Below, piece after piece: positions 30,266-33,298 of a stretch of DNA of 64,000 nucleotides. The translations under genes and the position numbers were made by a program. Positions within the stretch are counted from its first letter, which is position 1. Every line of letters starts with the position of its first letter. Under the pieces are notes generated by a model, which saw nothing but the letters and a program-made list of their open reading frames with translations, was not told the DNA's origin and ran no database searches. This DNA is from Aidingimonas halophila (lineage in GTDB: Bacteria > Pseudomonadota > Gammaproteobacteria > Pseudomonadales > Halomonadaceae): contig NZ_FNNI01000007.1 in the NCBI RefSeq assembly GCF_900106955.1, forward strand, positions 248,001 through 312,000. The letters run 5' to 3'.

Positions 30266-30865
30266 TCAGTAATCGATGCCGCGTCTGGCCTGTAGACCGT
30301 TGTTGAAAGCGTGCCGGGTGTCATGCATCTCGGTGATGGTGTCGGCCATATCGAGGAGGTCACGATGGGCATTACGACCGGTGATGATGACTGTCTGCTC
30401 GGTAGGGCGGTGTTGTAGCGCTTGTTTGACGCGTGCGACATCCAGATAGCCGAACTTGAGCATGTAAGTGATTTCGTCGAGCACCACGAGATAGATCGAG
30501 GGATCGGCGAGCATCCGTTCGGCTTCTTGCCAGACGTCCAGGCAGGCCTGGGTATCGCTCTCACGGTTCTGCGTCTCCCAGGTGAAACCGGTTGCCATCA
30601 CCTGGACATCGAGGTTCTCGTCATCGATCAGACGATCGCGTTCACCGCACTCCCACATGCCCTTGATGAACTGTACGACGCTGACTTTATACCCATAACC
30701 CAGCGCTCGCGTCACCGTTCCCCACGCTGCCGTGGTCTTGCCCTTGCCGTTGCCGGTGAATACCAGTAACAGGCCACGTTGCTCCGTCGCCTTGGCGACC
30801 TTCTCATCGACACGTTCCTTCAATTTCTGCATCGATTGCTTATGGCGTGTTTCTCGGTCGTTCAT
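30266..30865 (-). CDS. cobO: Cob(I)yrinic acid a,c-diamide adenosyltransferase (CobA/CobO/BtuR)
   Basis: A 199-residue corrinoid adenosyltransferase that adds the 5'-deoxyadenosyl group from ATP to cob(I)alamin. The P-loop is FTGNGKGKTTAAWG near residue 36, and VVLDEITYMLKFGYL and IITGRNAHRDLLDMADTITEM are family hallmarks. The start is ATG 30863-30865, behind GGAGG; an overlapping GTG at 30868 is less likely. No other cobalamin genes or a cobalamin riboswitch lie nearby, so it may serve salvage rather than synthesis. Confidence 0.93.
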   Translation of the reverse strand: MNDRETRHKQSMQKLKERVDEKVAKATEQRGLLLVFTGNGKGKTTAAWGTVTRALGYGYKVSVVQFIKGMWECGERDRLIDDENLDVQVMATGFTWETQNRESDTQACLDVWQEAERMLADPSIYLVVLDEITYMLKFGYLDVARVKQALQHRPTEQTVIITGRNAHRDLLDMADTITEMHDTRHAFNNGLQARRGIDY

Positions 30866-31039
30866 CACCCCTCCGAAAGGAAATGTTCATGATGATGACA
30901 GACTACGTCAGAACATTGCACCCGGCCATCTCCGCTGTGTGATACCGGAGAATTTTCCTTTGCGAACATCTTGCTTGGTGACATGATGCGTCGATCTGGT
31001 GGGAGACATGCAGGCCGTTTCCGGTGTAAGGAGTGGGCG

Positions 31040-31513
31040 ATGACGTCGGTTCCGTTTGTGGTGGGGCTGGTATTTCTCATCATCGGTGCAGAGGCGCTGG
31101 TGAGAGGTGCATCGCGATTGGCGGGGGCGATTCGCGGTGAACGCGATATTGCGGTGGGAAACGTGGTTGGCAGCAATGTCTTCAATATCATGGGCGTTCT
31201 CGGCCTGGCGAGTCTTTTGGCGCCATCGGGTGTTGACGTTTCTGCGGCCGTCATACGATTCGATATCCCGGTGATGATTGCCGTGGCCTTGGCGTGCCTA
31301 CCGGTCTTCTTCACTGGAGGAGTCATCGGTCGTGGTGAAGGAGCGCTGTTGCTGGGCTATTACGTGGCGTATACCGCGTATCTGATATTGGCCACCGCGC
31401 ATCATGACGCCTTGCCGACATTCAGTGCGGCGTTGATGTACGGCGTTATCCCTCTCACCGCCGTATTCCTGACGATCGCTGCTTGGTGCGAATGGAGGTC
31501 ACTGGGTGGTTGA
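31040..31513 (+). pseudogene. Calcium/sodium antiporter (CaCA) family, internally deleted
   Basis: A 157-residue frame behind AAGGAG (31029-31034), starting at ATG 31040. Residues 1-32 look like TM1 of a CaCA exchanger (GAEALVRGASRLA). They run directly into GAIRGERDIAVGNVVGSNVFNIMGVLGL, which belongs after the second ion-binding repeat, and then the usual second-half end. Full proteins have about 320-370 residues and two GTSxPE alpha-repeats; neither is present. An in-frame deletion of roughly 190 residues would explain this, and transport is not expected. The frame is intact, so it could be translated. Its last 15 bases overlap the convergent pgpA. Confidence 0.75.
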
Positions 31514-31978
31514 AGGCTTTCCTCGCCGCCAGAGCGCTAATCCCACCGCTATGATCAGCCAGACATAGAGGTTGGCTACGAGGTCGTCCAGCACGATTCC
31601 CAAGCCGCCTGCCACGTGTTCGAGCTGGGCCGCCGGTGGCGGCTTGATTCCATCCGCGATACGACTAAGAGCAAAGGTGCCGCCCATGACGGCGGGGTGT
31701 CGCGTTGCCAGTTGACCAGCGACGGCAGCGGGAAAGGCCATGAACTCGTCCGCGACGATACGGCTGTCGTCCTTGCCACCCAATGTATCCGACGCGATAT
31801 GGCAGATTGGCACGGCTATGACCAGCAAGCTGCCGGCAATGAGATAGTGTAAGCGTCGTGAATGACGCAATACCCACCATGCCAGCAATAACCCCGGAAG
31901 AGCGCCGACGGTTCCCGGTAGTATGGGCGATTGGCCGAGCCCGAAACCGGTGGCCAGTGCGGTGATGAAATCGGTCAT
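31499..31978 (-). CDS. pgpA: Phosphatidylglycerophosphatase A
   Basis: A 159-residue inner-membrane enzyme that removes the phosphate from phosphatidylglycerophosphate to make phosphatidylglycerol. It has the family N-terminus ATGFGLGQSPILPGTVGALPG, and DSRIVADEFMAF and LSRIADGIKPPPAAQLEHVAGGLGIVLDDLVA motifs with the conserved Asp residues. Four hydrophobic helices. The start is ATG 31976-31978, giving the usual length; a frame extending to 32230 overlaps the divergent chrA and has no support. thiL and nusB, frequent neighbours, are absent. Confidence 0.92.
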   Translation of the reverse strand: MTDFITALATGFGLGQSPILPGTVGALPGLLLAWWVLRHSRRLHYLIAGSLLVIAVPICHIASDTLGGKDDSRIVADEFMAFPAAVAGQLATRHPAVMGGTFALSRIADGIKPPPAAQLEHVAGGLGIVLDDLVANLYVWLIIAVGLALWRRGKPSTTQ

Positions 31979-32098
31979 GGGATACCTGAAGGTTGTCATA
32001 TGGGTGTGACACAATGAGTACATGATAATGGATGCGTCAGAACTTGACGCGCCATCGCTCGGTATCCGTGGAATGATTTCAATCGATCGGGAAGGCTC

Positions 32099-33298
32099 AT
32101 GACAAATACGCAGGCCGGTTCTCGTGTCAGGGACGTGTTTAAAGCGTTTCTCCTGCTGGGGCTGACATCGTTCGGTGGGCCGATCGCTCACCTGGGGTAT
32201 TTTCGTAGCGAATTCGTGACACGTCGCCACTGGCTGGACGAGAAGGCCTATGCCGATCTGGTCGCGCTGTGTCAGTTTCTGCCCGGGCCGGCAAGTAGTC
32301 AGGTAGGTTTTGCATTGGGGTTGCTGCGGGGCGGACCTTGGGGGGCGGCCGCTGCGTGGCTGGCATTCACGTTACCGTCGGCGATCGTCTTGGTGCTGTT
32401 CGGCATGGGCGCGGCACTGATGGAAGGCCCGGTAGGTAGCGGTATCATCCACGGTTTGAAGGTCGTGGCTGTAGCGATCGTTGCCCAGGCGGTCTGGGGG
32501 ATGGCAAGGAATCTCTGTCCTGACCGTCGGCGAGCAACGATTGCGTTGGTGGCTGTGCTGATGGTGATGGCAGTGGGTGGGCCCGGCGGACAGGTAACGG
32601 CGATTCTGCTGGGTGCCGTGGTCGGTTGGTGGCTATGTCGGGATGCAAGTGTCACCGAGGGTGAGGCATTGCACTTTCCGGTTTCCAGGCGTGCAGGTGG
32701 TATGGCGCTGGTGGTCTTCGGGATCCTGTTGGCTGGCCTGCCATTGCTGGCGCTTCTTTCGTCCAGTCAGGGAATGTCTATGGTGGATGCTTTCTATCGT
32801 GCCGGGGCACTGGTGTTCGGTGGAGGGCATGTGGTACTGCCGTTGCTGGAAGCAGAAGTGGTGCAGTCCGGTTGGGTCTCTTCGGACGCCTTCCTGAGCG
32901 GTTATGGAGCGGCACAAGCGATTCCGGGACCGTTATTTACCTTTGCGGCATATTTGGGCTCGGTGATGCAGACGCCACCCAGTGGTGTTCTGGGCGCGGT
33001 GATCGCATTGGTCATGATTTTCCTGCCAGGCATGTTATTGTTGATTGGTGTGATGCCGTTCTGGAATGCCTTCCGTCGCCTGACGGGGGCTCAGGCGGTG
33101 ATGCGAGGTACCAATGCTGCGGTTGTCGGTATTCTGGGCGCGGCTCTGTATGATCCTGTCTGGACAACGGCAATTCTTGGACCGGCCGAATTCGCCCTGG
33201 CGCTCACCGGCTTTGTACTGCTTACCGTATGGAAAGTGCCACCCTGGACAGTGGTGGTGGTGTCGGCACTCGGAGGTATCGTGATCAGTGCGGGCTGA
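32099..33298 (+). CDS. chrA: Chromate transporter ChrA
   Basis: A 399-residue membrane protein of the CHR family, long (two-repeat) form. Each half begins with a related motif: SFGGPIAHLGYFRSEFV and LCQFLPGPASSQVGFALG in the first half, and GALVFGGGHVVLPLLEAE and GYGAAQAIPGPLFTFAAYLG in the second. It expels chromate across the inner membrane using the proton or sulfate gradient (family knowledge). No chrB or regulator is adjacent. ATG 32099 follows a GGAAGG run; the gene is divergent from pgpA. Confidence 0.92.
   Translation: MTNTQAGSRVRDVFKAFLLLGLTSFGGPIAHLGYFRSEFVTRRHWLDEKAYADLVALCQFLPGPASSQVGFALGLLRGGPWGAAAAWLAFTLPSAIVLVLFGMGAALMEGPVGSGIIHGLKVVAVAIVAQAVWGMARNLCPDRRRATIALVAVLMVMAVGGPGGQVTAILLGAVVGWWLCRDASVTEGEALHFPVSRRAGGMALVVFGILLAGLPLLALLSSSQGMSMVDAFYRAGALVFGGGHVVLPLLEAEVVQSGWVSSDAFLSGYGAAQAIPGPLFTFAAYLGSVMQTPPSGVLGAVIALVMIFLPGMLLLIGVMPFWNAFRRLTGAQAVMRGTNAAVVGILGAALYDPVWTTAILGPAEFALALTGFVLLTVWKVPPWTVVVVSALGGIVISAG

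Follow-up and report, generated by a model that had tools for sequence, protein, structure and literature searches.

Does a 157-residue open reading frame of Aidingimonas halophila, which joins the start of a CaCA-type cation exchanger directly to sequence from its second half, represent a gene in decay or a small membrane protein put to a new use? Both options had been offered in a first-pass annotation of the 64,000-nucleotide stretch that carries the frame (hereafter, the window). Comparison with related genomes identifies the frame as a genuine, internally deleted CaCA (TIGR00367-type) exchanger gene. We interpret it, with a probability of about 0.8, as a loss-of-function allele of a redundant exchanger gene produced by a recent in-frame deletion.

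An in-frame deletion relative to a full-length ortholog

The closest relative found was the congener Aidingimonas lacisalsi strain XHU 5135 (locus L036, genome G001), whose exchanger is full length (356 aa), syntenic, and located between the same neighbors. Starting at its codon 230, this ortholog aligns with window positions 31127 to 31507 (identity at 273 of 381 bases), and the register of the TM1 part against L036 is offset from that of the second-half part by exactly 600 bp (200 codons). The deleted residues, 30 to 229 of the ortholog, correspond to TM2 to TM7 in an AlphaFold model of the full-length protein. Synteny and alignment with a full-length ortholog establish descent from the CaCA family, and in a FastTree phylogeny the window sequence is the sister of the A. 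lacisalsi ortholog (local support, 0.87). The 200 missing residues were not found elsewhere in the A. halophila genome, in which the best match (43% identity) was to another exchanger. L036 has GCGAT at the left boundary of the deleted segment and GCGCT at the right boundary, and GCGAT is also what the window carries; the join bears a microhomology of ∼5 bp, GCG(A/C)T, and no long repeat.

These comparisons bear out the first-pass description of an open frame with its own ribosome site in which an in-frame deletion fuses TM1 to second-half sequence, and they supply the full-length ortholog that it proposed to look for in close relatives. The junction lies within the interval it suggested (near 31120 to 31140). 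Its estimate of roughly 190 missing residues was correct as to the loss and is revised in size to 200 codons, and the search for junction repeats that it proposed yields the short microhomology alone. The join had been placed after the alpha-2 repeat; it falls instead inside alpha-2, in the loop between TM7 and TM8, and TM8 is kept.

Table 1. Features of the locus and of related exchanger copies
Feature	Position	Strand	Details and basis
CaCA exchanger remnant ORF	31040-31513	+	157 aa, open frame
Ribosome-binding site AAGGAG	31028-31033	+	6 nt 5' of ATG; from sequence
TM1 part, 29 codons	31040-31126	+	68/87 bases identical to start of A. lacisalsi ortholog
Deletion junction GCGAT	31127-31131	+	Comparison with A. 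lacisalsi
Second-half part (TM8, TM9, TM10, C-terminal TM11)	31127-31513	+	Alignment and models
Cob(I)alamin adenosyltransferase gene (PF02572), upstream neighbor	30266-30868	-	Pfam; also adjoins A. lacisalsi ortholog
Phosphatidylglycerophosphatase A-like gene, downstream neighbor	31499-32230	-	3' end covers final 15 bases of exchanger
Histidine-kinase ORF, A. lacisalsi	L036:4389-5225	-	Between exchanger and pgpA; missing in window
109-aa chimera, A. halophila contig C19 near 86,938-87,268	L140:1439-1768	+	Sequence comparison
Chimera, genome G104	L143:1935-2378	+	Exchanger 3' part joined at SIGVLG
Extra exchanger N-terminal half, genome G103	L171:4765-5271	-	168 aa
Exchanger halves in different frames, genome G156	L172:659-1704	-	Frames meet in central loop
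Hybrid exchanger, genome G082	L142:1945-2508	-	187 aa, single alpha repeat

The two species differ at this locus in one further respect, the histidine-kinase ORF present in A. lacisalsi. Its start resembles, by eye, the end of a response regulator, and no ortholog of it was found in the A. halophila genome (best match, 31% identity). The ORF was either inserted in A. lacisalsi or lost in the window.

Loss of the ion-binding motifs

The tripeptide GTS occurs nowhere in the 157 residues, which confirms the earlier statement that both GTSxPE motifs (TM2 and TM7) are gone. The accompanying description of the protein as lacking both ion-binding repeats is overstated, because TM8 is kept with its GNVVGSNVFN motif: alpha-1 is wholly lost, whereas alpha-2, of which TM8 is the second half, loses only its TM7 half. 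According to a study of NCX_Mj (PMC4753433), 12 residues of that exchanger hold ions, with TM2 and TM7 contributing four apiece and TM3 and TM8 two apiece, and replacement E54A or E213A lowers kcat/Km 25- to 50-fold. When aligned in the numbering of the same source, window residues S45 and N49 correspond to NCX_Mj S236 and D240, leaving 2 of the 12 ligand positions, the TM8 pair only. Since neither catalytic glutamate is left, ion exchange by the known mechanism should be impossible for the fragment, and its sequence indicates that the remnant is almost certainly transport-dead.

Family assignment follows the same lines. The two alpha repeats, each with GTSxPE, that characterize a CaCA exchanger are not present in the window protein. 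It has TM1 and TM8 to TM10 with GNVVGSNVFN in common with the TIGR00367/PF01699 calcium/sodium antiporters (Escherichia coli YrbG type, NCX_Mj fold), but unlike them it is without TM2 to TM7 and the GTSxPE motifs, and its score of 77 bits for the NCBIfam model TIGR00367 lies under the curated cutoff of 179.65, compared with 298.7 bits for the A. lacisalsi ortholog. The PF01699 score (63.2 bits) is above the gathering score of 24.9; the match is a single stretch covering profile positions 55 to 150 of 151, and the A. lacisalsi ortholog matches in two stretches.

Distribution of the short form and of other broken copies

Of 275 family genomes, 55 contain exchanger matches at an E value of ≤1e-30, for a total of 58 places, and at 54 of these places the open frames are at least 353 aa long (among them G156, with halves in different frames). 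The four shorter frames are that of the window, one cut by a contig end (G273), one with another internal deletion (G082), and a 3' remnant with a foreign start (G104); the short architecture of the window was not found in any other of the 275 family genomes. Among 369 genomes drawn from the class, 21 places in 20 genomes match at an E value of ≤1e-28, and the only other open frame below 300 aa, L147, is cut by a contig end; because the family and class searches overlap in genomes, their counts are not additive. ORFs shorter than 300 aa that are truncated where a contig or locus ends (L147, L038, L016, L141, and L117) were set aside. So was L068, a record that is interrupted at stop codons and comes from Gracilibacteria, a group with TGA recoding.

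A conserved short family, with the same short form in several species, was thus not found. Many relatives carrying the short form had been named in the first-pass annotation as what would refute recent decay; the search of the 275 family genomes returned none. Of the two options that the annotation offered, decay is the better one, with the short form in 1 of 275 genomes and broken copies in relatives.

Several of those broken copies have features of their own. In A. halophila itself, the 3' remnant of a second exchanger (C19 near 87,094) is preceded in the chimera at L140 by 56 aa from the start of another gene, for which G006 and G014 contain relatives with longer open frames, and a VIT1-family gene directly follows. 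The foreign start of the G104 chimera is presumably that of a dihydrodipicolinate-synthase-like gene, and G104 also carries a full-length exchanger. An intact full-length copy, almost identical in sequence, lies ∼3 kb away from the extra N-terminal half in G103. The split in G156 may be natural, dividing the exchanger into two half genes, or it may stem from a frameshift or a sequencing error.

Selection on the retained part

To place the window protein among 132 distinct full-length family sequences (A. lacisalsi included), its two parts were aligned fixed in place; free mafft alignment put the window TM1 on TM6. Over the 127 retained codons, the window and L036 differ at 28 first, 13 second, and 67 third positions. 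The corresponding NG86 estimates are a dN of 0.165 and a dS of 1.68, a ratio of 0.10 compared with 0.09 to 0.17 for five neighboring genes, all of these ratios being rough because dS is near saturation. In the 94 columns with at least 50% family agreement, the window deviates 17 times and A. lacisalsi 18 times, and of the 26 columns in the second-half part with ≥90% conservation across the family, 25 are unaltered. Tip branches in the tree (FastTree, 108 rows) measure 0.175 for the window and 0.215 for A. lacisalsi. A simple binomial bound, calculated on the columns that reach ≥50% family agreement, limits the neutral postdeletion share of the branch to ∼9% at an omega of 0.1, 14% at 0.15, and 19% at 0.2; on the stricter 70% columns, the limit is 12 to 18% at an omega of 0.1 to 0.15.

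Neither acceleration nor relaxed constraint was detected in the retained part, which points to either a young deletion or a constrained product. A single allele does not distinguish between the two, and youth is the simpler reading.

Structure models

AlphaFold predicted five helices for the window fragment, with a pLDDT of 58.8 and a pTM of 0.48, compared with 83.7 and 0.84 for the A. lacisalsi ortholog as a full-length control. The contrast is partly unfair, since the alignment for the fragment had no homologous rows over TM1, while the control, also run with 30 rows, had homologous rows over its entire length.

Weighing the explanations

In the reading that we prefer, the in-frame deletion of 600 bp removed TM2 to TM7, with slippage or end-joining at the 5-bp microhomology as the probable mechanism, and translation of the remainder would yield a five-helix membrane fragment (TM1, TM8, TM9, TM10, and TM11). 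The sequence comparison demonstrates the deletion and the motif loss directly, whereas inactivity, recency, and the microhomology mechanism are inferred. The genome has full-length CaCA genes at two other places, C21 and C12, which would make the loss bearable. Together with the second 3' remnant in the same genome and the broken copies in relatives, these two intact genes make the loss of this copy unremarkable. Counting against loss of function are the intact frame, start, and ribosome site (a one-in-three outcome for a random deletion) and the unrelaxed constraint on the retained part (dN/dS, ∼0.10). The same observations speak for a rival explanation, in which the five-helix product was repurposed and is maintained by selection, perhaps because it partners or inhibits the intact exchangers; this explanation also draws on the nearly unchanged conserved columns and on the low ceiling for any neutral period. 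We nevertheless consider it unlikely: the short form occurs in one genome only, a sigma-70 scan of positions 30840 to 31620 found no promoter-like site, the AlphaFold model is poor, and a deletion that is merely young is expected to give the same selection figures. The first-pass suggestion of a repurposed protein has no positive support; it keeps a small probability because the retained part evolves no faster than its ortholog. A narrower version, slightly less probable again, is that the small protein (TM1 plus TM8 to TM11) binds, tunes, or blocks intact exchangers and so became a regulatory subunit through one deletion; because TM2 to TM7 are an even number of helices, TM8 to TM11 would hold their native orientation.

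Two further explanations are improbable, and about equally so. The A. halophila genome is a 21-contig draft known from its assembly alone, and the living strain might carry a full-length gene from which 600 bp were lost in assembly or library construction, but a 5-bp microhomology would be far too short for assembly collapse, and the contig in whose interior the locus lies is 365 kb long. Alternatively, recombination between the alpha repeats might first have produced a half-size exchanger, as at L142, that then lost TM2. A first step of this kind is present in the relative G082, but it is superfluous here: one deletion of 600 bp suffices to account for the sequence, and the residues that precede GN, RGERD, match the alpha-2 type. 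We therefore retain loss of function by a recent deletion. In-frame-deleted transporter pseudogenes are a general kind in bacteria, and the A. halophila gene resembles them as a microhomology deletion in a redundant gene, with no notable difference.

A single-alpha-repeat hybrid in a relative

The G082 copy (L142) is, like the window gene, an exchanger of the same kind with an in-frame internal deletion and an open frame; unlike the window gene, it retains one complete alpha repeat with GTSSPE. It has 162 codons fewer than L134, with the crossover within the GNVVGSNVFN of both repeats: 57 of its first 60 residues are identical to those of L134 (first repeat), and the C-terminal part of the second repeat follows. 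Replacement changes relative to L134 are few. The hybrid is the sole subfamily copy (E value of ≤1e-30) in G082, a single-contig genome, and its form was found in 1 of 90 genomes searched in its genus. No half-size or single-alpha-repeat CaCA protein was found in the literature, as judged by titles.

Taken alone, the deletion in A. halophila means little: one species minus one of three exchangers. With the broken copies in relatives, which we take to be Halomonadaceae, members of this family seem to break the exchanger often. More interesting than the deletion itself is the hybrid of G082. A half-size ancestor has been proposed for inverted-repeat transporters; the single-alpha-repeat hybrid resembles such an ancestor and is directly assayable.
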